Positions 52,299 through 63,720 of a stretch of DNA of 64,000 nt are shown here, piece after piece. The stretch is from the NCBI RefSeq assembly GCF_000518985.1, contig NZ_JAEQ01000001.1, positions 496,001-560,000 on the forward strand, in the 5' to 3' direction. The number at the start of each line of letters is the position of its first letter. The stretch's first letter is position 1. The position numbers were made by a program, and so were the translations under genes. The DNA comes from Chelativorans sp. J32 (GTDB lineage: Bacteria; Pseudomonadota; Alphaproteobacteria; Rhizobiales; Rhizobiaceae). Under the pieces are notes generated by a model. It saw nothing but the letters and a program-made list of their open reading frames with translations, ran no database searches and was not told the origin of the DNA.

Positions 52299-52323
52299 GG
52301 AACTTTGGGTGGGGGAAACCGTT
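52299..52323 (+). promoter_or_regulatory. EcfG-type general stress response promoter for prkA-yeaH-spoVR
   Basis: GGAAC at 52299-52303, exactly 16 bases, then CGTT at 52320-52323: the alphaproteobacterial EcfG consensus GGAAC-N16/17-CGTT. The expected start of transcription, about 52330, leaves a leader of about 60 bases to the prkA ATG. It lies in the 330-bp gap 52062-52391, where I see nothing else. Confidence 0.8.
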
Positions 52324-52391
52324 CACTCCAAGCAGGAGCCGACAGGCAGCGATCTCCGTTGCAACCAACCGGCCTGTCGGGAGAAGGTGCG

Positions 52392-54341
52392 ATGCACAGG
52401 AGCGAATCTGACGTCTTTAATCTCTTTTCGGAGATTTACAGCAGCGCGGCGCGGGAAGAGATGAGCCTTCAGGAATATCTCCTCGCGTGCCGGGACGATA
52501 AATCCATGTATGCCACCGCCGCCGAGCGGATGGTTGAGGCGATTGGCGAGCCTACCCTGATCGATACCAGCATGGACGAAAGGCTGGGCCGGATCTTCGC
52601 CAACAGGACGATAAAGATCTACCCGGCATTCTCGGACTTCTACGGCATGGAGGACACGATCGAAAGGATCGTGGGCTACTTCCGCTATGCCGCACAGGGG
52701 CTCGAGGAGCGCAAGCAGATCCTCTATCTCCTTGGGCCTGTAGGCGGCGGCAAGTCCTCGCTCGCCGAGCGGCTCAAGAAGCTGATGGAACAGCGGCCGA
52801 TCTACACGCTTTCCGTCAACGGCAAGGTGAGTCCGATCTTCGAGTCTCCGCTGGGGCTCTTCCACCCCGACCGGATGGCTGACCTGCTCGAAGACAAATA
52901 TGGGATCGCCCGGCGCCGGCTTACGGGATTGATTTCCCCGTGGGCGGCCAAACGCCTTGAAGAAGTGGGCGGGGACATCTCCAAGTTCAGTGTCGTCAAG
53001 CTCACGCCGTCCCGGCTGCGGCAGATCGGCATCGCCAAGACGGAGCCCGGGGACGAGAACAATCAGGACGTCTCCTCGCTGGTTGGCAAGGTCGATATCC
53101 GCCAGCTCGAGAATTTCAGCCAGCACGATCCCGACGCTTACTCCTATAGCGGCGGCCTGAACCGCACCACCCAGGGCCTGCTCGAATTCGTCGAGATGTT
53201 CAAGGCACCGATCAAGGTGCTCCATCCGCTGCTGACTGCTACCCAGGAAGGCAATTACAACGGAACGGAAAATTTCGGCGCCTTCCCCTATCAAGGCATT
53301 GTCGTTGCCCACTCCAACGAGTCGGAATGGCTGCAATTCAAGAACAACAAGAACAACGAAGCTTTCCTCGACCGCATCCTGGTCGTGAAGGTGCCCTATT
53401 GCCTGCGGGTCACCGAGGAGAAGATGATCTACGACAAACTTCTCCGTGAAAGCGAGCTGAAGAATGCACCCTGCGCTCCCGAGGTCTTGGAGATCCTGAG
53501 CCGCTTCACCGTAGCGACGAGGCTTACGGAGCATGAGAACTCGTCGCTCTACACCAAAATGCGGGTCTATGATGGTGAGAACCTCAAGGACGTAGATCCC
53601 AAGGCGAAGTCGGTGCAGGAATACCGTGACGCCGCGGGCGTGGACGAAGGCATGACCGGGGTGAGCACGCGATTTGCCTTCAAGGTGCTTTCGGAGACCT
53701 TCAATTACGATACCAAAGAGGTGGCCGCCGATCCGGTCCATCTCATGTATATCCTGGAACAGGCCATCCGGCGCGAGCAGTTCGCGAAGGAGAAGGAGAC
53801 GTCTTTCCTCGATTTCATCAAATCGGAGCTTGCGACCCGCTACGCCGAATTCATCGGTCATGAAATACAGAAGGCGTATCTGGAGTCCTACAGCGAATAT
53901 GGCCAGAACCTGTTCGACCGCTACATCGCCTACGCCGATGCGTGGTTGGAAGACCAGGACTTCAAGGATCCCGATACCGGCCAGATCCTGAATCGGCAGG
54001 TGCTGGACAGCGAGCTGTCGCAGATAGAGAAGCCGGCCGGCATCGCCAATCCGAAAGACTTCCGCAACGAAGTGGTGAAGTTCACGCTTAGGGCACGCGC
54101 CAAGAACAATGGCCGCAATCCATCCTGGACGAGCTACGAGAAGTTGCGTGAAGTGATCGAGAAGCGCATGTTCGGTCAGGTGGAGGATCTGCTGCCGGTG
54201 ATCAGCTTCGGTTCGAAGAAGGATTCACAGACCGAAAAGCAGCATGCGGAATTCGTTCAGCGCATGGTCGAGCGCGGCTATACCGAGCGTCAGGTCCGGC
54301 GCCTCGTCGACTGGTATATGCGGGTCAATAAGGCAGGCTGA
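52392..54341 (+). CDS. prkA: PrkA/YeaG serine protein kinase (AAA+)
   Basis: 649-residue cytosolic protein with an AAA+ P-loop GPVGGGKSSLAERL (about 115-128) and the C-terminal PrkA domain (SFGSKKDSQTEKQHAEFVQRM, GYTERQVRRLVDWYM). E. coli YeaG and Bacillus PrkA are kinases or AAA proteins of starvation and stationary phase. The ATG at 52392 follows GAGAAGGTGCG; the frame to 52305 overlaps the promoter. First gene of prkA-yeaH-spoVR. Confidence 0.95.
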   Translation: MHRSESDVFNLFSEIYSSAAREEMSLQEYLLACRDDKSMYATAAERMVEAIGEPTLIDTSMDERLGRIFANRTIKIYPAFSDFYGMEDTIERIVGYFRYAAQGLEERKQILYLLGPVGGGKSSLAERLKKLMEQRPIYTLSVNGKVSPIFESPLGLFHPDRMADLLEDKYGIARRRLTGLISPWAAKRLEEVGGDISKFSVVKLTPSRLRQIGIAKTEPGDENNQDVSSLVGKVDIRQLENFSQHDPDAYSYSGGLNRTTQGLLEFVEMFKAPIKVLHPLLTATQEGNYNGTENFGAFPYQGIVVAHSNESEWLQFKNNKNNEAFLDRILVVKVPYCLRVTEEKMIYDKLLRESELKNAPCAPEVLEILSRFTVATRLTEHENSSLYTKMRVYDGENLKDVDPKAKSVQEYRDAAGVDEGMTGVSTRFAFKVLSETFNYDTKEVAADPVHLMYILEQAIRREQFAKEKETSFLDFIKSELATRYAEFIGHEIQKAYLESYSEYGQNLFDRYIAYADAWLEDQDFKDPDTGQILNRQVLDSELSQIEKPAGIANPKDFRNEVVKFTLRARAKNNGRNPSWTSYEKLREVIEKRMFGQVEDLLPVISFGSKKDSQTEKQHAEFVQRMVERGYTERQVRRLVDWYMRVNKAG

Positions 54342-54359
54342 CGATGCGCGGGTTTCCTC

Positions 54360-55673
54360 ATGCCGATTTATATCGATCGCCGGCTTAATCCCAAGGACAA
54401 GAGCCTGGGAAACAGGCAGCGCTTCCTCAAAAGGGCCAGGGAAGAGCTGAAGCGGACGATCAAGGAGCAGGTCAAGGCCGGCAAGATAACGGACGTGGAC
54501 GCCGAGCATCGCGTGCCGATGCCGGCCCGCGGGACGAGCGAGCCTACTTTTCGTCCTGATCGCTCCAGCGGAGAGAGAGCCTATATCCTCCCGGGAAACA
54601 AGGAGTTTTCCCAGGGGGACCGCCTTCCCAAGCCTGGTGGTTCCGGGGGCGCCGGCGGCACCGGGGCCGGCCGCGGAGGCGCGGACGACGATTTCCAGTT
54701 CGTGCTTTCACGCGAGGAGGTGCTCGATCTCTTCTTCGAGGATCTCGAACTTCCCGACATGGTGAAGATGAACCTCAAGGAGGCGGTGGCCTACAAGCCG
54801 CGCCGCGCGGGTTTTGCAACGAGTGGTTCCCCCACCAACATCAATGTCGGCCGGACCATGCGCAACAGCTACGGCCGGCGCATCGCGCTCCACCGGCCGA
54901 GCAGGCAAGAGGTGGAGAGGCTTGCCACAGAGATTGCAATACTGGAGGCCGATCCGAACAAATGGGCAAAACGTCAGCAGCTTGAAGCACTATGGGCGGA
55001 ACTGGAGGCGCTGGAGCGCAAGCGCCGGCGCATCCCTTATGTCGATCCGGTCGATGTCCGCTTCAATCGCTTCGAGCCGCAGCCTCTTCCCAACGCGAGC
55101 GCTGTCATGTTCTGCCTCATGGATGTGTCGAGCTCCATGGGCGAGCGCGAGAAGGACCTGGCAAAGCGCTTCTTCGTGCTTCTGCATCTTTTCCTGAAGC
55201 GGCGCTATGACCGCATCGACATCGTCTTCATCCGGCACACCCATGAAGCGCGGGAGGTAGACGAGGAGACGTTCTTCTATTCCACCCAGAGTGGCGGCAC
55301 GGTCGTTTCCACGGCGCTTGAGGAAATGCAGCGCATTATCGGCGAGCGCTATCCCTCGCGCGAATGGAACATCTATGCCGCGCAAGCTTCCGATGGCGAC
55401 AATATCGCTGGCGATTCGGAACGGTGCGCCTCCATGCTGCGCGACGAGCTGATGGAGCTCTGCCAGTATTATGCCTATGTCGAAATCATCGACGAACGGG
55501 AAACCGAGATCTTCGGGGCCACCGATAATGGCACCTCCCTTTGGAGAGCCTACCGCACCGTCGGTGAGAAATGGCCGAACTTCCAGATGACGCGCATAGC
55601 CCGTCCGGCGGACATATATCCCGTGTTCCGCAAGCTCTTCGCTCGGCAAAACGCCGCCCAGACGCGCAGGTGA
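54360..55673 (+). CDS. YeaH/YhbH family protein (DUF444, vWA domain)
   Basis: 437 residues. N-terminal IDRRLNPKDKSLGNRQRFLKR is the family signature; a Gly-rich stretch follows (GGSGGAGGTGAGRGG), then a von Willebrand A-like domain with the MIDAS motif DVSSSMGE at about residue 258 and FYSTQSGGTVVSTAL. Acts with PrkA and SpoVR in a stress or sporulation-related system whose biochemistry is unsettled. Starts 18 bp after prkA. Confidence 0.93.
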   Translation: MPIYIDRRLNPKDKSLGNRQRFLKRAREELKRTIKEQVKAGKITDVDAEHRVPMPARGTSEPTFRPDRSSGERAYILPGNKEFSQGDRLPKPGGSGGAGGTGAGRGGADDDFQFVLSREEVLDLFFEDLELPDMVKMNLKEAVAYKPRRAGFATSGSPTNINVGRTMRNSYGRRIALHRPSRQEVERLATEIAILEADPNKWAKRQQLEALWAELEALERKRRRIPYVDPVDVRFNRFEPQPLPNASAVMFCLMDVSSSMGEREKDLAKRFFVLLHLFLKRRYDRIDIVFIRHTHEAREVDEETFFYSTQSGGTVVSTALEEMQRIIGERYPSREWNIYAAQASDGDNIAGDSERCASMLRDELMELCQYYAYVEIIDERETEIFGATDNGTSLWRAYRTVGEKWPNFQMTRIARPADIYPVFRKLFARQNAAQTRR

Positions 55674-55681
55674 TTGGAACG

Positions 55682-57232
55682 ATGTCCGCTACGAAAGCAG
55701 CCCCGGGCTCGACGCTTCTCTTCGACGGCTCCGACTGGAATTTTTCAACCCTGTCTCGCACCTACGACGCCATTGAGAAGATTGCGCTGGAGGAATTGCA
55801 CCTCGACGTCTATCCCAACCAGCTGGAGATAATCTCCTCGGAGCAGATGCTCGACGCCTATTCGTCGGTCGGCATGCCCTTGATGTACCAGCACTGGTCC
55901 TTCGGCAAGCGCTTCGTCTTCGAGGACCATCTTTATCGCTCCGGGCGGCGCGGTTTGGCGTATGAGCTGGTGATCAATTCGAACCCGTGCATTGCCTATC
56001 TCATGGAAGAGAACACCATGGCCATGCAGGCCCTGGTGACGGCGCATGCCTCCTTCGGCCACAACCATTTCTTCAAGAACAATTACCTCTTCCAGCAATG
56101 GACGGATGCGAGCGCCATTCTGAGCTATATGGAGTTTGCCAAGAAATACATTGCCAAATGCGAGGAGCGATACGGCACGGCGGCGATTGAAGCCATCCTC
56201 GATTCCGCACACGCTCTCATGGATCAGGGCGTGTTCCGCTACCGCAGGCCGCCGCGCCTATCCTCCGAAAAGGAGCGCGAACGCGCCCGCGAGAGGCTGG
56301 AATATGAAGAGCAGACCTTCAACGATCTCTGGAGAACCTTGCCGCCGCGCACGTCGGAAGAAGACGACGACGAGGTGGAAGCGGAGGTTGCCGAGCGCAA
56401 GAAGAGGCTGAATCTGCCGGAGGAAAACCTTCTTTATTTCCTGGAAAAGAACAGCCTGATCCTCCAACCCTGGCAGCGGGAACTCCTGCGCATCGTCCGC
56501 GTCATCGCCCAGTACTTCTATCCGCAGCGGCAGACGAAGGTGATGAACGAAGGCTGCGCCACCTTCGTCCATTATTACATCATGAACCGGCTCTACGATC
56601 AGGGGAAGATCAGCGAAGGAGCCATGTTGGAGGTTCTCCAGAGCCACACGAATGTGGTTTTCCAGCCCGACTTCGACGATCCGCGCTTTCCAGGGATCAA
56701 CCCCTATGCGCTGGGATTTGCGCTCATGCAGGACATCCAGCGCATCTGCGGCAAGCCCACGCCGGAAGACCGCGAGTGGTTTCCCGAGATTGCCGGCAGC
56801 GGCAATTGGCGTGACACGCTACTGGATGCCTGGGCAAACCACCGCGACGAATCCTTCATCCTGCAGTATCTGAGCCCTGCGCTCATCAGGAATTTCCGGC
56901 TCTTCCTGCTGAAGGACAAGTCGAGCGACCCCTATTGCGAAGTGGCGTCGATCCATAATGAGCGCGGCTATGAAGCGATCCGCACATCGCTCGCCCGCAG
57001 CTATGACATCGGCGTGAGTCAGCCAGATATCCAAGTGGTGGATGTGGATCTGTTGGGTGACCGGCATCTGCGCCTGCAGCACAATGTGAAGAGCGGCGTC
57101 CTCCTGGACGAGGAGAATCGCGACGCGACGCTGCGTCACGTCTGCCGTCTTTGGGGCTATGACGTGAGCCTTGCGGGCGTCGATGCCGAGACTGGTTCCA
57201 GGCTCTACGAAACATCGGCCAAGGCTGGATAG
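55682..57232 (+). CDS. spoVR: SpoVR/YcgB family protein
   Basis: 516 residues with YPNQLEIISSEQMLDAYSSVG, MPLMYQHWSFGKRF, HASFGHNHFFKNNYLF, NEGCATFVHYYIMNRLYDQG and ALGFALMQDI, all conserved SpoVR segments. The recurring His and Glu residues resemble a metal or peptidase-like site. Starts 8 bp after yeaH and completes the stress operon. Start is ATG at 55682; the earlier frame lies in yeaH. Known from Bacillus spore cortex formation, but this organism type does not sporulate. Confidence 0.95.
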   Translation: MSATKAAPGSTLLFDGSDWNFSTLSRTYDAIEKIALEELHLDVYPNQLEIISSEQMLDAYSSVGMPLMYQHWSFGKRFVFEDHLYRSGRRGLAYELVINSNPCIAYLMEENTMAMQALVTAHASFGHNHFFKNNYLFQQWTDASAILSYMEFAKKYIAKCEERYGTAAIEAILDSAHALMDQGVFRYRRPPRLSSEKERERARERLEYEEQTFNDLWRTLPPRTSEEDDDEVEAEVAERKKRLNLPEENLLYFLEKNSLILQPWQRELLRIVRVIAQYFYPQRQTKVMNEGCATFVHYYIMNRLYDQGKISEGAMLEVLQSHTNVVFQPDFDDPRFPGINPYALGFALMQDIQRICGKPTPEDREWFPEIAGSGNWRDTLLDAWANHRDESFILQYLSPALIRNFRLFLLKDKSSDPYCEVASIHNERGYEAIRTSLARSYDIGVSQPDIQVVDVDLLGDRHLRLQHNVKSGVLLDEENRDATLRHVCRLWGYDVSLAGVDAETGSRLYETSAKAG

Positions 57233-57268: not shown

Positions 57269-57880
57269 CTAAGCGCCCAGTTCCTGTGCGCGCTTGTTCA
57301 GGTCGACGAGCAGCGACGACGTGACTTCCAGGCTTCGATCCTCGCGGGCTTGGACGCCGTCAGGAGCAGCATGCGCCGAGAGAACACGGTCCCGCTCCCG
57401 GATGAGCTCGGCAATCTCCGCTTGATAGAGCCGCACGATGGCGGTGAGCCACCGATTGACGAGGTAGGAGGGCTTCGCAAGGTCCATGTCGAAGCGCGGC
57501 AACAGAGCGATGCTCTGCTCGGCATCCAGCCAGATATCACCGACCACCCATTGGTTGACCGTGAAAAGACGGTGCAGCTTTCCATAAGGGTTCACCCCCA
57601 CGGCGATCAGGTGATGCACGGGACCACCGGCACCTTGAGGCCGCACGAAGCAATGGAAATGCCCGTGCTCCACTTCGTCTGCCGGAGGGATATGGCAGTG
57701 ATAGTACCACTGCCCGCCGCTCGTCGGGTCGAACACATCGCCCGGCGGATAATGCGACCAGGCCTCCACCGAGTTGGCGTCGGTCAGCGTCTCGCGCAGG
57801 ATATTCTCGCCCGATTTGGCGAGAATACGCTCGCAGTAGAGCGCCTCCTGCACAGCCCTGCGAAGATCTTCCTCGGCCAT
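57269..57880 (-). CDS. Uncharacterised protein with EHGHFHCF motif
   Basis: 203-residue soluble protein, no signal peptide. The middle contains WSHYPPGDVFDPTSGGQWYY, HCHIPPADEVEHGHFHCFV and HHLIAVGVNPYGKLHRLFTVNQW, rich in histidines spaced like metal ligands and suggestive of a cupin-like or HxH metal site. I recall similar proteins under DUF6969, but I am not sure of the number. It lies 9 bp after the Cys-repeat gene and is the last gene of the tst-yeeE operon, so a role in sulfur chemistry, perhaps as an oxygenase or thiol-acting enzyme, is possible. Confidence 0.7.
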   Translation of the reverse strand: MAEEDLRRAVQEALYCERILAKSGENILRETLTDANSVEAWSHYPPGDVFDPTSGGQWYYHCHIPPADEVEHGHFHCFVRPQGAGGPVHHLIAVGVNPYGKLHRLFTVNQWVVGDIWLDAEQSIALLPRFDMDLAKPSYLVNRWLTAIVRLYQAEIAELIRERDRVLSAHAAPDGVQAREDRSLEVTSSLLVDLNKRAQELGA

Positions 57881-57889
57881 CGGAACGCC

Positions 57890-58339
57890 TCACTGCGCCC
57901 CGGCGGCGTAGGGATTGAACGGCGCGCAGGGAGCACTCGCGGCACAGGGATTCGCTGCCGGTGCTGCCGCCGCGCAAGGGTTTGCGGCCGGCGCCGCCGC
58001 TGCGCATGGATTTGCCGCTGCACAAGGTGCTGAAGCTGCGCAGGGATTGGAGGCCGGAGAAGCAGCGCAGGGGCTCGCCGCCGCGCACGGATTTCCTGCC
58101 GCGCAGGGGTTTGCAACAGGAGCAGCCGCGCATGGATTTCCAGCCCCGCAAGGAGCAGCTGCGGCACACGGGTTCGCCGCGCAGGGATTGGCGACCGGTG
58201 CAGCAGCACAGGGATTTGCTGGCGTGGCGACGGCTGCAGGCGCGGCGGCGCGGCCCGCCGCCGCGATATGATCCGCAGCTATGCCCGCCGTGGCGACGAG
58301 AAGGCCCGTACCGAACAGGAGGGTGTTTCTGGCGCTCAT
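57890..58339 (-). CDS. Secreted Asn-Pro-Cys repeat protein
   Basis: 149 residues. N-terminal signal-like helix (NTLLFGTGLLVATAGIAA) then an Ala/Pro tract and, from residue 42 to 138, fourteen cysteines. Every Cys follows Pro; ten are in Asn-Pro-Cys, at residues 44, 53, 58, 70, 79, 84, 100, 112, 122 and 132, and four in Ala/Ser-Pro-Cys, at 64, 91, 106 and 138. The last repeat is degenerate (NPY). Almost only Ala, Pro, Asn, Ser, Gly and Cys occur. The ATG overlaps the yeeE stop (ATGA). I know of other NPCA-repeat proteins but no function; a periplasmic sulfur, thiol or metal buffer is inference from neighbours. Confidence 0.85.
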   Translation of the reverse strand: MSARNTLLFGTGLLVATAGIAADHIAAAGRAAAPAAVATPANPCAAAPVANPCAANPCAAAAPCGAGNPCAAAPVANPCAAGNPCAAASPCAASPASNPCAASAPCAAANPCAAAAPAANPCAAAAPAANPCAASAPCAPFNPYAAGAQ

Positions 58340-59547
58340 TTTGACTTGAACCCGTCGAGACCGAAGAAGGGACGCAGATAGATGCCGACGAGGCTACCGG
58401 CAAATGCAGCCACGAACCAGAGCCAGCCATGCAGGCTGCCCGAAGCAATGCCGCTGAAGAGCGCGCCGATATTGCAGCCGAATGAAAGCCGCGCGCCATA
58501 GCCCATCAAGATGCCGCCGATCGCTGCAGCGAGGAAGGAAGCGAAGGGCACATGCACCTTCGGCGCGAACTTGCCTGCAAGACCGGCGGCGAGCGCCGCG
58601 CCCAGGATGATACCGAAATTCATCACCGACGTGACGTCCTGCAGCACGCTCGATTGCAGCGCTTTGGCCTGAGCCGGCCAGGTCCAGAAGGTCCATTCGG
58701 CGACCGGAATGCCGACAGCCGCCGCGACCTTCGCGCCCCACAGGCCGAAGCCGTAGGTTACCGACCAGGGGTGCCCAGCGATGAGCAGGGTGGCGATGTT
58801 CAGCAGTGCGAGAAGAAGACCAGCACCGATCAATGGCCATGGCCCGTGGAGAAGGCGCGTGATGCCGGCGGTCGGGGCCGGCTTTGGCGTTTCCAGCGAG
58901 CCATGCGCGCCGCGTTCTATTGTTGCGCTGATCCAGGCCACTGCGCCAAGTCCCATCAGCGTCACCGCGATTGCAAGCGGCACGCCCAGGCTCGTCCCCA
59001 GGCTAATGGCCGGCAGCGATGGCAGCTCCAGCCACCAGGGCAGGTGAGCCGTGCCGAGCACCGCTCCGACGATAAAGAACAGAAGCGTGACCAGCATGCG
59101 TGAGCTACCGCCACCCACGGTGAACAGGGTGCCGGAGCCGCAGCCGCCGCCCAATTGCATACCCAAGCCGAAAATGGCCGCGCCGAAGAGCACGGACATG
59201 CCGACCGGTGCCACCGCGCCCACGAGCGCCTGCCCGAAGACGTTCCCCGTCGAAAGGAGGGGGATGAAGACGATCGCTGCAGCACCGATCATCAGCATCT
59301 GCGCGCGAAGCGCCGAACCGCGCTTCTCCACGACGAAACGGCGCCACCCACCGGTGAAGCCGAACGAGGCGTGATAGAGGGTCAGCCCGAGGAGGCCGCC
59401 GATCAGGAAAAGGACGGCCTGGCGGAGATCCACAAGGGTGCCGATAGCGGCCGTGCCTATGGCAAGCACCGCGAGGACGGTTGCAACAGGCCCGCGGTCG
59501 ATTGGGATGGTGCGGGCAAGTTTCCCGCCGGCGGTAATATCAGTCAT
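58336..59547 (-). CDS. YeeE/YedE (TsuA-type) thiosulfate permease
   Basis: 403-residue inner-membrane protein with two homologous halves, about nine to ten spans. Each half has the family cysteine motif: GLGMQLGGGCGSGTLF (Cys 136) and GARLSFGCNIGALFSG (Cys 358). In the characterised TsuA proteins conserved cysteines pass thiosulfate through the membrane. The cytosolic partner TsuB/TusA is not encoded here. It is translationally coupled to the Cys-repeat gene and follows the secreted rhodanese, supporting sulfur import. Confidence 0.92.
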   Translation of the reverse strand: MTDITAGGKLARTIPIDRGPVATVLAVLAIGTAAIGTLVDLRQAVLFLIGGLLGLTLYHASFGFTGGWRRFVVEKRGSALRAQMLMIGAAAIVFIPLLSTGNVFGQALVGAVAPVGMSVLFGAAIFGLGMQLGGGCGSGTLFTVGGGSSRMLVTLLFFIVGAVLGTAHLPWWLELPSLPAISLGTSLGVPLAIAVTLMGLGAVAWISATIERGAHGSLETPKPAPTAGITRLLHGPWPLIGAGLLLALLNIATLLIAGHPWSVTYGFGLWGAKVAAAVGIPVAEWTFWTWPAQAKALQSSVLQDVTSVMNFGIILGAALAAGLAGKFAPKVHVPFASFLAAAIGGILMGYGARLSFGCNIGALFSGIASGSLHGWLWFVAAFAGSLVGIYLRPFFGLDGFKSK

Positions 59548-59566
59548 GAAGCATACCCGAAAATGC

Positions 59567-59595
59567 GATCTGCCCGGATGCCGTCCGGGCAGATC
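59567..59595 (-). terminator. Intercistronic hairpin between tst and yeeE
   Basis: Perfect 12-bp stem GATCTGCCCGGA/TCCGGGCAGATC with a 5-base loop, without a T-run. Likely sets higher expression of the upstream sulfurtransferase than of the permease. Confidence 0.65.
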
Positions 59596-59613
59596 GGCAG
59601 AATGGAAGGAAAG

Positions 59614-60531
59614 CTACTGCGCGACCACCGGCCGCGAAGCGTCGGCAGTCCACTGCGACATCGAGCCGTCATAAAGCCGCACATTCTGCAGGCCCTCGAC
59701 CTCCGACAGGCCGAACCAGGCGATGGAGGCCAGGTGACCGGTGTTGCAGAAGGTGATCAGGCCCTTGTCATCAGGCACGCTAGCGGTCTTGACGAGCCGT
59801 GCGATCTCCTCCGCGCTCGCGAAACCCGGCTTCTCCGGATGGTAGAACTTGTCGAAGTTGATATTGACCGAAGTTGGCACAGTGCCGAGCGCCTTGACGG
59901 TGTTCGTCTTCTCCTGACCGATGAACTGGGCGACTGAGCGCGCATCGATCAGATTGGTGTCTCCCGCGATCGCCTCCTGAACCTCCTTCACATCGGCCAG
60001 GAGTTCGGGCCGGAAATTCGCGGTGAAATTTCCCGGCTCTGGCGTGGTGACCTCTTTCGAGACCTCGCCGCCGGCCTTGGCCCACGCGGCATACCCGCCG
60101 TCCAGGATCGAAACGGCATCATGGCCGAGAACCTTGAATGTCCAGTAGACGCGGGTAGCGCCGCCGAATTCCGACGCATTGGTGCCGGCGGGAACGATCA
60201 CCACATGGCTGTCGTCGTTGACCCCGAGGTTTTGGATCACCTTTTCAATCTGCTCGGTCGGAGGCAACATGCCTGGGATGCCGTTCACCGTCGTACGCCA
60301 GCCGGCTTCCGAGTAGCGCGCGCTGATGGCGCCCGGCACATGGCCTTCGGCATAAGGATCGACATTGTTGGCCGCATCGCGGATGTCGAGGACCACCAAA
60401 TCCTCCTGGCCCAGATTTTCGGTGAGCCATGCGGCATCGACCAAGGGCTTGTCGGTTAGGCGCTCGGCATTTGCGGCGCCGGTCAGCAATAGCCCGAGCG
60501 CGAGGACGGAACCGATTATCGCGGATCGCAT
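59614..60531 (-). CDS. Periplasmic thiosulfate sulfurtransferase (rhodanese)
   Basis: 305 residues with a clear signal peptide (residues 1-23, ending GAANA) and two rhodanese domains. The first has VVLDIRDAANNVDPYAEGHVPGA and no catalytic Cys (VIVPAGTNAS); the second carries the catalytic loop CNTGHLAS, Cys at about 262. It would move sulfane sulfur from thiosulfate to cyanide or a thiol acceptor. The ATG at 60531 was chosen for the signal peptide; the frame runs on to 60681. First gene of the tst-yeeE-NPC operon. Confidence 0.92.
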   Translation of the reverse strand: MRSAIIGSVLALGLLLTGAANAERLTDKPLVDAAWLTENLGQEDLVVLDIRDAANNVDPYAEGHVPGAISARYSEAGWRTTVNGIPGMLPPTEQIEKVIQNLGVNDDSHVVIVPAGTNASEFGGATRVYWTFKVLGHDAVSILDGGYAAWAKAGGEVSKEVTTPEPGNFTANFRPELLADVKEVQEAIAGDTNLIDARSVAQFIGQEKTNTVKALGTVPTSVNINFDKFYHPEKPGFASAEEIARLVKTASVPDDKGLITFCNTGHLASIAWFGLSEVEGLQNVRLYDGSMSQWTADASRPVVAQ

Positions 60532-60725
60532 GAGATTTCCATTCAGTTGGTGAGGAAGAAGCTGACCCATATTTGCACCGCCGCTCGCTACGTAAAACGC
60601 AAGAGCCTCTAAATCTGGCGGTCGCTTGGAATTTTCATCCGCATTTACTGCCTTACGACAAAAAATTCTCCCTTCCATCAAATCCCTCGCCGCTTTTTAC
60701 TGCACCGCATAAAGGAACCCTCACC

Positions 60726-61157
60726 ATGCCAAATTGGGCCCATCTAGCTGTCATAATCGGATTTCTTTCCTTCGCTGCGCTTCCGGCGGTCGCGGAAAAC
60801 ACTGCGCAAACCACAGACAGCCCGGCCGAGGCTTCTGCCCCGCGAGCCACGGTCCTGGACTTCCAGGGCGAGGAGCAGCTCAGGACGCTTGCCGAAAAAG
60901 GCAAGACGGTCGTCTTCTTCTTCGCCAGCTGGTGCCCGAATTGCCGGGCCACGGTGACGGAGCTCAACGCCCGCTGGGCGGAGGTAAACCCCGAGCTTAC
61001 GCTGGTTATCGCCGATTACGACAAGGAGACCGAGCTCAAGAGCAAATACGGCGTCACCTATCAGGACACCTTCGTCCTTCTCGATTCCAATGCACAGGCC
61101 GTGAAATCCTGGAATGGCGGGGGCGTGGACGGTCTCAACGCCAACTCGAAGCTCTAG
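60726..61157 (+). CDS. Secreted thioredoxin-like protein
   Basis: 143 residues: signal peptide (HLAVIIGFLSFAALPAVA), then a thioredoxin fold with VVFFFASWCPNCRATVTEL (Cys 70 and Cys 73) and DTFVLLDSNAQAV. The CPNC motif indicates a periplasmic disulfide reductase. Its electron donor is probably the CcdA protein encoded 24 bp downstream. Divergent from the tst operon. The frame upstream to 60573 is not used. Confidence 0.88.
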   Translation: MPNWAHLAVIIGFLSFAALPAVAENTAQTTDSPAEASAPRATVLDFQGEEQLRTLAEKGKTVVFFFASWCPNCRATVTELNARWAEVNPELTLVIADYDKETELKSKYGVTYQDTFVLLDSNAQAVKSWNGGGVDGLNANSKL

Positions 61158-61180
61158 CGCCTGAACGGCGCGTATCGGCC

Positions 61181-61906
61181 ATGCTGGTCACCCTCGGCTT
61201 CGCTTTCCTCGCGGGCATCATAACGGTGCTGTCGCCCTGCGTGCTGCCCCTGTTGCCGGTGATCTTGGCCACTGCTGCTCAGGAGGGGAAGGGCCGGCCA
61301 GCCGGTGTCGTGATCGGTTTCGTGGGAAGTTTCAGCCTGGCGACCCTGGCCTTGAGCTTCCTCGTCCGCTCTCTTGGCGTACCGCCCGATCTGAACCGCA
61401 CGCTCGCGGCAACCATCCTGATCCTGCTCGGCTTGATCCTGGCCGTACCGCCGCTCCACAGCGCCTTCGAACGCTGGACAAGCGGGATGGCGGGCAAAGT
61501 GCCGGCCGGTAATGGCGATCCCGGTTTCATCGGGGGGTTGGCTGTCGGCGCCGGCCTTGGCCTTGCCTGGAGTCCCTGTGTCGGGCCGATCATGGCATCC
61601 GTCATCACGCTTGCCCTCAACCAGACTGTGACACTCGGGGCGGTGGCGGTCACGCTCGCCTTCTCCCTTGGGACAGCGATACCGATGGCCGCAGTCATGG
61701 CCGGAGGCAGGCGGATCGTTAAGCGGCTTTACTGGTTCCAGGCGAATGCCTCGACCATTCAGCGCGTGTTGGGGATCCTCCTGATCCTGACGGGCCTTTC
61801 CATCTTTGCCGGTTGGGATCGTGCGATCCAGGTCCAGCTTTTGACCTGGTTTCCCAATTGGGAGCAGGCGCTGACCGGCTGGGAGCCTCGGCCGGGTGGA
61901 CTTTGA
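61181..61906 (+). CDS. CcdA/DsbD-type cytochrome c biogenesis transmembrane protein
   Basis: 241-residue inner-membrane protein with six spans and the paired cysteines in LSPCVLPLLPV (Cys 20) and AWSPCVGPIMA (Cys 133) that carry electrons from cytosolic thioredoxin to the periplasm. It most likely reduces the adjacent WCPNC thioredoxin, which may keep the rhodaneses or the Cys-repeat protein reduced. The longer frame from 60734 is out of the trx frame and unsupported. Confidence 0.9.
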   Translation: MLVTLGFAFLAGIITVLSPCVLPLLPVILATAAQEGKGRPAGVVIGFVGSFSLATLALSFLVRSLGVPPDLNRTLAATILILLGLILAVPPLHSAFERWTSGMAGKVPAGNGDPGFIGGLAVGAGLGLAWSPCVGPIMASVITLALNQTVTLGAVAVTLAFSLGTAIPMAAVMAGGRRIVKRLYWFQANASTIQRVLGILLILTGLSIFAGWDRAIQVQLLTWFPNWEQALTGWEPRPGGL

Positions 61907-62036
61907 GCACGTGCGCGAAGCAGGCGCGTCGAAGAAAAACGTACTCTCCGCAGCAGTAAATTTGAAATAGCGCCGCTTTGAAATCTCTACTGCGCCGGTA
62001 GTCTATTCATGCTTCCACTCCTGCTGAGGTCAGATC

Positions 62037-63323
62037 ATGTCCAAATCCGCTATCGCCACTCTTTTCGTGACCAGTTTTCTGGTGCTCCCGGGCGCTATAA
62101 TACCGGGCTCCGACGCATTTCTGGCCGCCCCCGCGGCCCATGCCGAGACGCAACGCTTCCCGATCATCGTATCCGCAGAGCAGGCGAAAAAGCTGATAGC
62201 GGGTGGCGCCAAGGTAATCGACGTCCGCTCGCCGGAAGCCTACGCCAAGGGCCACATCCCCGGAGCAATCAATCTGCCCTGGCAGCGCCTCAATGTCTCG
62301 GAAAGCGACGGCATCCGCAACGAGTTTGCAGGTGATGACGTCTTCGAGAAGGAACTCAGCGCTGCCGGCATCAGCTACGGCGACACGATCCTCATCTACG
62401 ACACCACAGCGCTTCCGGGCCGCGCCTACGTCGCCTTCGAATATGCCGGCTTGGGCGATAAGACGCACGTGCTCGATGGTGGCGCCGCTGCTTGGACCGA
62501 CGGATTTTCGACGGAGCCGGTTGAGGTTGCCGCCACCTCCTTCAAGCTTGAACGGAAGAACGATATCCGCGTCGACAAGAACTATGTCGCAAGCAAGGTG
62601 GGGGCGGACGGTTCCATCATCATCGACGGCCGTAACGAAGATGCTTACGCCGACGGCCACATACCCGGCGCGCAGGCCGTCCCTGCCTCAAGCCTGCTGA
62701 CGAAGGAAGCGACGCTCCAGTCTGAGCCTGTGTTGACGGCGCTGCTGCAATCCAAAGGCGTCACCCCCGATCGGGAAGTCGTGTCCTATTGCGGCAGCGG
62801 CGTGGCGGCTGCGAACAATTACCTGGCGCTGAAGAATCTCGGCTACACCAATGTCGTGCTCTACGATGCGAGCTGGGACGAATGGAGCCGTGATCCCCGC
62901 GCCGGTCAGCAGGTCTCGCTCGCCAATTACACCTTCGAGGATGGAGCAACGGCGGCGACGGCCGACGGCGCGCCGCAGTTCTTAAACGAGGCCGAGATCA
63001 AGGCGCTTGCGGACAATCCGGATGTGGTCATCGTGGATGTGCGCTCACCCTCGGATTATGCGGCTGGGCACATCCCCGGGGCCGTCAATGTGTTCTGGGA
63101 TGCCACTTTCGATGAGGACCGCGTGCTGCTCCCGGCGGAAAAGCTGAAGGCGCTTTACGAACAGGCGGGCGTCTCTCCGGACAAGCGGGTCATTCTTTTC
63201 ACCCGTGGCGGCCTGCAGCTTTCACACACCTACACCGTGCTGAACCTGCTTGGTTATCGCGACGTAGACTTCTTTACGGGCAAGTTCCAAGGCTGGGAAA
63301 ACGGCGCTTTCAAACGCAGTTGA
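62037..63323 (+). CDS. Secreted triple-rhodanese-domain protein
   Basis: 428 residues, signal peptide to about residue 37, then three rhodanese domains. Domain 1 (about 45-160) has YDTTALPGR in place of the catalytic loop; domain 2 (about 178-288) has the active loop YCGSGVAA with Cys 252; domain 3 (about 315-425) has FTRGGLQLS. Cys 252 is the only cysteine of the whole protein, so only domain 2 can be a sulfurtransferase. It lies 130 bp beyond ccdA, same strand, with its own probable promoter. Confidence 0.9.
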   Translation: MSKSAIATLFVTSFLVLPGAIIPGSDAFLAAPAAHAETQRFPIIVSAEQAKKLIAGGAKVIDVRSPEAYAKGHIPGAINLPWQRLNVSESDGIRNEFAGDDVFEKELSAAGISYGDTILIYDTTALPGRAYVAFEYAGLGDKTHVLDGGAAAWTDGFSTEPVEVAATSFKLERKNDIRVDKNYVASKVGADGSIIIDGRNEDAYADGHIPGAQAVPASSLLTKEATLQSEPVLTALLQSKGVTPDREVVSYCGSGVAAANNYLALKNLGYTNVVLYDASWDEWSRDPRAGQQVSLANYTFEDGATAATADGAPQFLNEAEIKALADNPDVVIVDVRSPSDYAAGHIPGAVNVFWDATFDEDRVLLPAEKLKALYEQAGVSPDKRVILFTRGGLQLSHTYTVLNLLGYRDVDFFTGKFQGWENGAFKRS

Positions 63324-63390: not shown

Positions 63391-63720
63391 TTACAGGAAA
63401 TCCCTGCGCTTCGGCGTGAAGCTGTCCACCAGTCGGCCTGCCTCGACAGCCTTGACGCCATGGACCGTGTTTGACGGGACAATGAAGGAATCGCCCGCGG
63501 AGAGGATTGTCGTCCTATCCCCGATCGTTACCTCGAAGCGGCCTTCCGCCACGTAGCATGCCTGTACATGCGGATGGGAGTGAAGCGCGCCCACGCTGCC
63601 TTCCTCGAACGTGAATTCCACCAGCATCAGCTCATCTGTGTGGACGAGCACCCGGCGGCGGCTGCCGCCTCCGAGGTCAGTCCATTCGCCTTCGGCCCGC
63701 CTGGCAACGTGTTGCGTCAT
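63391..63720 (-). CDS. Cupin-domain protein, KdgF-like
   Basis: 109-residue single cupin: VGALHSHPHVQACYVAEGRFEVTIG (His ligands and Glu) and GDSFIVPSNTVHGVKA (distal His). The sequence RRRVLVHTDELMLVEFTFEEG and the ending TPKRRDFL match KdgF, which linearises unsaturated uronates from pectin or alginate. Next to a KduD-like SDR, which supports this, though no lyase is in view. Confidence 0.82.
   Translation of the reverse strand: MTQHVARRAEGEWTDLGGGSRRRVLVHTDELMLVEFTFEEGSVGALHSHPHVQACYVAEGRFEVTIGDRTTILSAGDSFIVPSNTVHGVKAVEAGRLVDSFTPKRRDFL

Follow-up and report, generated by a model that had tools for sequence, protein, structure and literature searches.

Bacterial enzymes of the MNIO type (DUF692, PF05114) are genetically tied to Cys-containing precursors, most of which carry Sec signal peptides and some of which are very long, as described in PMC12452194. 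The YeeE/YedE-type permeases SoxT1 and SoxT2 (PF04143) import sulfur and are encoded beside SoxYZ and SoxS; PMC11582611 calls passage of SoxY-bound sulfur along the channel Cys of SoxT1 conceivable, and the introduction of the SoxT paper states that SoxY-bound sulfur reaches the cytoplasm by unknown means, ahead of results that show a role for SoxT1A. Here we analysed a stretch of 64,000 nucleotides from Chelativorans sp. J32 (contig NZ_JAEQ01000001.1, positions 496,001 to 560,000; the window, from whose first letter all window positions are counted), in which seven genes at 57269-63323 include those for a PF04143 permease, a Pro-Cys repeat protein and a protein with the domain of unknown function DUF6969 (PF22308). 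The original prediction for this block, made from the sequence, was a periplasmic sulfur relay built around an Asn-Pro-Cys (NPC) repeat protein. Our survey supports a different centre, namely a pairing of DUF6969 with Pro-Cys proteins, seen as linkage and as co-occurrence (the latter in a few cases between unlinked genes), with or without sulfur permeases. We propose, with a probability of roughly 45%, that DUF6969 and exported Pro-Cys proteins form a functional pair, that DUF6969 prepares the motifs, and that the pair here serves YeeE sulfur import.

As with MNIO enzymes and their bufferins or oxazolins, a partner protein is tied here to Cys-containing proteins, probably exported ones, but DUF6969 is a separate Pfam family and the motifs of the window are Pro-Cys, not EGKCG. 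PF05114 had no match in the Chelativorans genome (the control matched in 2 of 14), DUF2063 had none in the 28 proteins compared with Pfam, and the main text of PMC12452194 has no mention of DUF6969, NPC, YeeE, rhodanese or P460. As in the SoxT systems, the window permease belongs to PF04143 and has conserved Cys, and periplasmic thiol-disulfide proteins are encoded nearby; unlike them, the window has a Pro-Cys repeat protein in the place of a SoxY-like donor, together with DUF6969. PF13501 (SoxY) gave zero matches in the same genome and also zero in the control genomes. The permease family is shared with TsuA-TsuB (YeeE-YeeD) of E. coli, but the window permease lies far below the TsuA cut-offs, and Pfam named no YeeD/TusA-like protein among the window proteins scanned around the permease. 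The PmpA/PmpB half-permeases have a likeness at three loci (L105, L235, L236), where split PF04143-like halves stand beside a repeat protein and DUF6969, whereas the window permease is full-length.

Co-occurrence and linkage of DUF6969 and NPC repeat proteins

DUF6969 loci were collected in three overlapping draws, which gave 202 loci in total. The order draw yielded 29 loci from 150 genomes (27 DUF6969-positive), the named draw kept, out of at least 562 confirmed relatives, the 80 ranked highest by likeness to the DUF6969 protein of the window, and the class draw covered 385 genomes, 90 of them DUF6969-positive, with 93 loci representing 94 of 102 places (the window's own place and seven fragments were left out). 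Some loci recur across draws (L054/L091, L052/L085, L090/L220, L139/L152 and other pairs seem to be one contig or one species each), so the number of independent cases is lower than the number of loci.

A profile of NPC proteins, A3, was built from loci beside DUF6969 and misses the window's own family. It matched in 52 of the 385 class genomes, and 48 of these 52 have DUF6969, as compared with 90/385 overall (p = 2.9e-31). Counted by genus, DUF6969 was present in 36/39 NPC-positive genera (p = 7e-24), and after removal of the seven genomes that had supplied profile rows the count was 41/45 (p = 5e-27). PF04143 is present in 168/385 class genomes, and the association with DUF6969 was found on both sides of this division: among PF04143-positive genomes, DUF6969 occurred in 37/41 with NPC versus 29/127 without (p = 8e-15), and all 11 PF04143-negative NPC genomes have DUF6969 (p = 3e-12). 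Within DUF6969-positive genomes, NPC and PF04143 showed no association (p = 0.48). The NPC proteins of the 385 genomes thus track DUF6969 rather than PF04143, and YeeE/rhodanese as an obligate partner of all Cys repeats was rejected.

Physical linkage was examined in the class draw. A Cys-repeat open reading frame (ORF) lies within 3 kb of DUF6969 at 42/93 loci, and the density of such ORFs was 48 in 351 kb up to 2 kb from DUF6969 versus 4 in the 585 kb that lie 3-8 kb away, an enrichment of about 18-fold. Within 5 kb, a PC-repeat ORF was found at 44/93 loci, 6 with and 38 without PF04143 in the same distance. The original prediction had itself named homologues located mostly away from sulfur genes as an outcome that would speak against it, and for the wider NPC kind this is largely what the 38/44 loci show. 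Over all 93 loci, the same 5 kb held PF04143 at 7, an FGE-like gene at 29 and a cytochrome P460 match at 26; sulfur loci are a minority of the class DUF6969 loci.

Partners can also be unlinked: in G177 and G446, each assembled as a single contig, the NPC ORFs lie megabases from DUF6969. Thirty stretches around A3 matches were read as a set of their own; 25 came from DUF6969 genomes, at a distance from DUF6969, and 5 from genomes with no DUF6969 match. Gene picking showed an ORF carrying at least two NPC motifs in 25/30 (none in L238, L240, L258, L262 and L264). Recognisable neighbours of this ORF were a VTT membrane protein, a pyridine-nucleotide disulfide oxidoreductase and a histidine kinase; in other cases the ORF was a P460 fusion. 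The PF04143 profile had no match among the genes picked in these 30 stretches, and a rhodanese occurred in three. Six stretches (L241, L243, L245, L256, L263, L266) share a second conserved setting in which unlinked NPC genes occur, with genes for a VTT-domain protein, a pyridine-nucleotide disulfide oxidoreductase, the NPC protein and a histidine kinase.

The wider repeats are varied in form. Many are of NPC or CxxC type with up to 111 Cys, and in 93 non-redundant ORFs the Cys spacings were divisible by three in 1536/2024 cases (76%), versus 37 ± 1% after token shuffling. In some, the repeats are joined to a further domain, which is cytochrome P460 (PF16694), a phosphatase of the DSP type or a SoxA/TsdA-like cytochrome c (PF21342; L233:7765-8613 and L044:9106-9927). 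P460 had zero matches in the Chelativorans genome, and its control was likewise silent. GAC, AEGC and GDCGG repeats also adjoin DUF6969. The AEGC-repeat ORF beside DUF6969 at L222:7779-8075 presumably resembles MNIO-type precursors.

A conserved FGE-sulfatase-like family also stands near DUF6969 (L035:10939-11853 and 53 others; PF03781, E value 3e-41), with a CxxC near the C-terminus in 53/54, at a spacing which we take to be unlike that of canonical FGE. CNPC repeats contain C-x-P, with which the FGE target motif presumably begins. One alternative is a buffering system of the bufferin kind, for copper or another metal: DUF6969 would prepare Cys ligands, the exported repeats would bind metal, and the sulfur genes would be side context. 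The CxxC-rich repeats of period three, the P460 and CxxC-bearing FGE-like neighbours, and the MNIO/bufferin precedent with its Sec-exported Cys-containing substrates (PMC12452194) all speak for it. The family of the window itself, however, has isolated Pro-Cys motifs, down to one, with sulfur genes as neighbours, and a metal transporter or regulator beside the window's repeat gene was neither sought nor identified. On balance, we hold metal buffering to be unlikely.

Near the N-terminus (first 45 residues), an LL[ST]T-like stretch was found in 36/78 wider repeat ORFs versus 18/180 secreted-like controls, with equal stretches counted for both and the window's family excluded from the 78. Such a shared stretch, together with the co-occurrence that is linked and sometimes unlinked, would suit a DUF6969 that acts as a chaperone or export-holding factor and keeps Cys-rich nascent chains reduced or unfolded by no covalent chemistry. 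In our judgement the five invariant His, the Arg and the Asp of DUF6969 resemble a metal or active site more than a peptide-binding surface, and we consider this role quite unlikely.

The sulfur block of the window and its close relatives

All seven genes were found at the places and on the strands originally predicted, as judged from ORFs and Pfam. Four are on the minus strand, transcribed in the order two-domain rhodanese, permease, Cys-repeat gene and DUF6969 gene, and three are divergent on the plus strand in the order thioredoxin-like WCPNC protein, CcdA and three-domain rhodanese:

57269-57880, minus strand: DUF6969 protein of 203 amino acids with a His cluster (YHCH, EHGHFH and the invariant H90); PF22308, E value 9.7e-72
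57890-58339, minus strand: Pro-Cys repeat protein of 149 amino acids with 14 Cys, 10 NPC and the conserved N-terminus RNTLLFG...ADH, probably exported or membrane-anchored; read from its sequence
58336-58339, minus strand: ATGA overlap of 4 bp between the permease stop and the repeat-gene start; from ORF coordinates
58336-59547, minus strand: YeeE/SoxT-type permease with conserved Cys in GGGCGSG and FGCNIG; PF04143, E value 5.7e-71
59614-60531, minus strand: two-domain rhodanese, probably exported, single Cys in FCNTGH; PF00581 in two stretches
60726-61157, plus strand: thioredoxin-like WCPNC protein, probably exported; PF00085, ATG read at 60726
61181-61906, plus strand: CcdA/DsbD-type membrane electron carrier (DsbD_TM); PF02683 and PF13386, ATG read at 61181
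62037-63323, plus strand: three-domain rhodanese, probably exported, single Cys in SYCGSG; PF00581 in three stretches

The repeat protein had no match in Pfam and NCBIfam scans at an E value of 0.1. To define its close family, we drew on the 57 loci where a permease gene precedes DUF6969 on the same strand, from which three without a small ORF (L049, L105, L186) and two with a permease fragment (L092, L224) were excluded. The remaining 52 loci, window included, all encode a small protein with a similar N-terminus between the permease and DUF6969, so the repeat gene is not a chance frame. The N-terminus is mostly RNTLLFGAAL...AxDH, and by eye most of the 52 show a hydrophobic stretch near the N-terminus, in many cases with AxA ahead of D-H. 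The 4-bp overlap with the permease gene had been taken as an argument for stoichiometric coupling. It is present, and the repeat gene starts at -4 relative to the permease stop in 43/52 loci, but ATGA overlaps are common in operons and the overlap is therefore weak evidence for such coupling.

Within this family, 291 of 292 Cys are preceded by Pro. Pro-Cys itself follows N, A, S, T or G and rarely another residue, so the Pro-Cys part of the predicted Asn-Pro-Cys repeat stands while its Asn is variable. The proteins have between 1 (Pseudothauera, L084) and 17 Cys, and Ochrobactrum- and Falsochrobactrum-like forms have two motifs, one of them near the C-terminus. A profile of this family, A2, matched in 10 of the 150 order genomes, every match adjoining DUF6969; each of the 10 belongs to the 27 genomes with DUF6969 and none to the 123 others (p = 7e-9). 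Five of the 10 had supplied profile rows, and without them the co-occurrence still gave p = 5e-5. CNPCNPC and NPCAAK occurred in no open PMC paper and NPCNPC in unrelated open PMC papers only, and broader terms brought up nothing on these repeats among the matches listed.

The permease matched PF04143 over its full length (240 bits, 1-309 of 310), and its two Cys are conserved in 55/59 and 57/59 relatives. It had been described as accepting thiosulfate. Against the NCBIfam TsuA models it reached 61 of 400 and 36 of 645 bits, far below both cut-offs, and thiosulfate is thus only a putative substrate. The FCNTGH Cys of the double rhodanese is kept in 43/43 adjacent rhodaneses. Since the double and the triple rhodanese have one Cys apiece, each has at most one Cys-based active site.

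PF04143 lies within 2.5 kb on the same strand at 59/202 DUF6969 loci, where the fetched stretch also holds a rhodanese in 42 and thioredoxin plus CcdA in 14; in the named draw, PF04143 was found at 43/80 loci. Comparison of these loci supports rhodanese, YeeE, repeat protein and DUF6969 as a conserved block. Co-occurrence of the repeat gene with YeeE and rhodanese genes describes the close family, but not the wider NPC kind, which tracks DUF6969. In the phylum draw, DUF6969 was present in 11/299 genomes, four of them outside the window's class, and two loci of another class (L235, L236) combine split PF04143-like halves with a small NPC protein, DUF6969 and a rhodanese. A quick DUF6969 tree of 177 rows, in which long branches make details unsure, put the PF04143 context at 10 changes, at least five of them forced by well-supported branches. 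The linkage to PF04143 thus recurs on several DUF6969 branches, also in another class.

The conserved gene order with rhodanese and PF04143, and a genome-level association of PF04143 with NPC, would be expected if the repeat protein stored sulfane sulfur at multiple sites in the periplasm, or relayed it between rhodanese and YeeE, with DUF6969 as an accessory. But that association is gone among DUF6969 genomes, and most class PC-repeat loci are without PF04143 nearby. A multi-site store is further disfavoured because syntenic orthologues carry 1 to 17 Cys. We therefore regard a store or relay of this kind as unlikely, and the idea that the repeat protein holds sulfur does not fit well. The single motif in one orthologue and the two in many would rather favour a carrier. 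The relay of the original prediction is a plausible account of this branch, but it misses the core.

Around the sulfur block, the plus-strand neighbour at 52305-57232 holds DUF444 (YeaH-type) and SpoVR genes by Pfam, and the ORF ahead of them presumably resembles the PrkA/YeaG kinase; a YeaG/YeaH/SpoVR-type gene set is a common stress operon. A small single-domain cupin gene (PF07883) lies just past the triple rhodanese at 63391-63720 on the minus strand. DUF6969 was matched in 0/13 other same-family genomes of the phylum listing (4 of which were also in the order draw), and the DUF6969 block may have been acquired horizontally here or lost in the same-family relatives.

The DUF6969 protein

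The gene at the end of the minus-strand series had been described as encoding an HGHFH protein of no assigned function. It belongs to a Pfam family, DUF6969 (E value 1e-71; 241 bits versus a cut-off of 27, positions 2-199 of 201), and this is itself a domain of unknown function. An alignment of 28 sequences contains the invariant residues P45, H61, H63, G73, H74, F75, H76, F78, H90, F106, N109, W111, V112, R163 and D164. No Cys is invariant in the same alignment, and a Cys-based sulfurtransferase was disfavoured as a candidate for DUF6969. No signal peptide is evident by eye at the start of the window protein or of the aligned relatives, so DUF6969 is most likely cytosolic and the earlier view that all parts of the locus work outside the cytosol does not extend to it.

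A structure model of high confidence (predicted local distance difference test, pLDDT, 95.4; predicted template modelling score, pTM, 0.92) has the histidines in or beside three successive strands (56-62, 73-79 and 89-96). Foldseek with this model gave no PDB match at an E value of 0.001 or lower, with a top probability of 0.14 among the matches listed; a sequence search of the PDB gave nothing up to an E value of 5; and DUF6969 was not found in open PMC papers. The loop from GHFH to the next invariant His is short in 51/56 members with PF04143 context and long in 128/135 measurable others, a split that follows the main DUF6969 clade.

In E. coli, YeeE takes up thiosulfate together with YeeD, a partner reported to be essential (PMC11073785), and the DUF6969 gene ends the permease block of the window. 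One could therefore imagine DUF6969 as the cytosolic acceptor for YeeE in place of YeeD, with the repeat protein as periplasmic donor. The protein would then have to accept sulfur with no invariant Cys, and PF04143 accompanies it within 5 kb at only 7/93 class loci; we consider such an acceptor very unlikely.

In our reading, DUF6969 most likely is a metal-dependent cytosolic protein that modifies, metal-loads or otherwise prepares Pro-Cys motifs before export. More tentatively, it may be the founder of a new class of cytosolic metalloenzymes acting on Pro-Cys motifs, a maturation like that of ribosomally synthesised and post-translationally modified peptides but unrelated to MNIO. It would extend over Alphaproteobacteria and at least one further class, and the matured motifs would be general sulfur or metal carriers in YeeE, P460, SoxA/TsdA-like cytochrome c and phosphatase modules.

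Proposed mechanism and its weight

In the functional pair that we prefer, DUF6969 would act on the Pro-Cys motifs in the cytosol before export, by modification, metal loading or holding. In the window and its relatives, the pair would be joined to a periplasmic module for sulfane-sulfur import. There the exported rhodanese may place sulfane sulfur on the flexible Pro-Cys motifs, and the repeat protein would serve as a SoxY-like carrier arm that offers the sulfur to the channel Cys of the YeeE/SoxT-type permease. The thioredoxin-CcdA branch, where present, would re-reduce the thiols. The number of motifs would not be essential to such an arm, as one to seventeen occur.

Several observations weigh against this proposal. 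The chemistry (modification, metal binding, persulfidation) is inferred throughout and the pairing is statistical; the genomes are phylogenetically related, and loci adjoining DUF6969 supplied the profiles. The case for an enzyme comes from the invariant residues, with no fold match in the PDB. PF04143 alone is also enriched with NPC (41/52, p = 5e-8), and in one genome an NPC ORF lies about 1 kb from a PF04143 half, apart from the DUF6969 gene of that genome (G286:C5:552459-553921). Four NPC-positive genomes have no DUF6969 match (G272, G405, G442, G490), although in G272 the contig with NPC, which includes an FGE-like gene, spans 4.2 kb, and the DUF6969 gene of this genome may be absent from the assembly only. 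Conversely, 42/90 DUF6969 genomes have no A3 match, a gap that is overstated because the family of the window escapes A3, and at 51/93 class loci no Cys-repeat ORF lies within 3 kb of DUF6969, some of these loci being cut by a contig end. In Devosia sediminis (L067), DUF6969 stands beside a rhodanese, and no permease or repeat was found.

The pairing points to an undescribed system that prepares Cys-rich exported proteins. If the proposal is true, a Pfam domain of unknown function would gain a substrate class, the widespread low-complexity Cys-rich exported proteins would gain a dedicated partner, and YeeE/SoxT permeases would have a carrier that is independent of SoxY.

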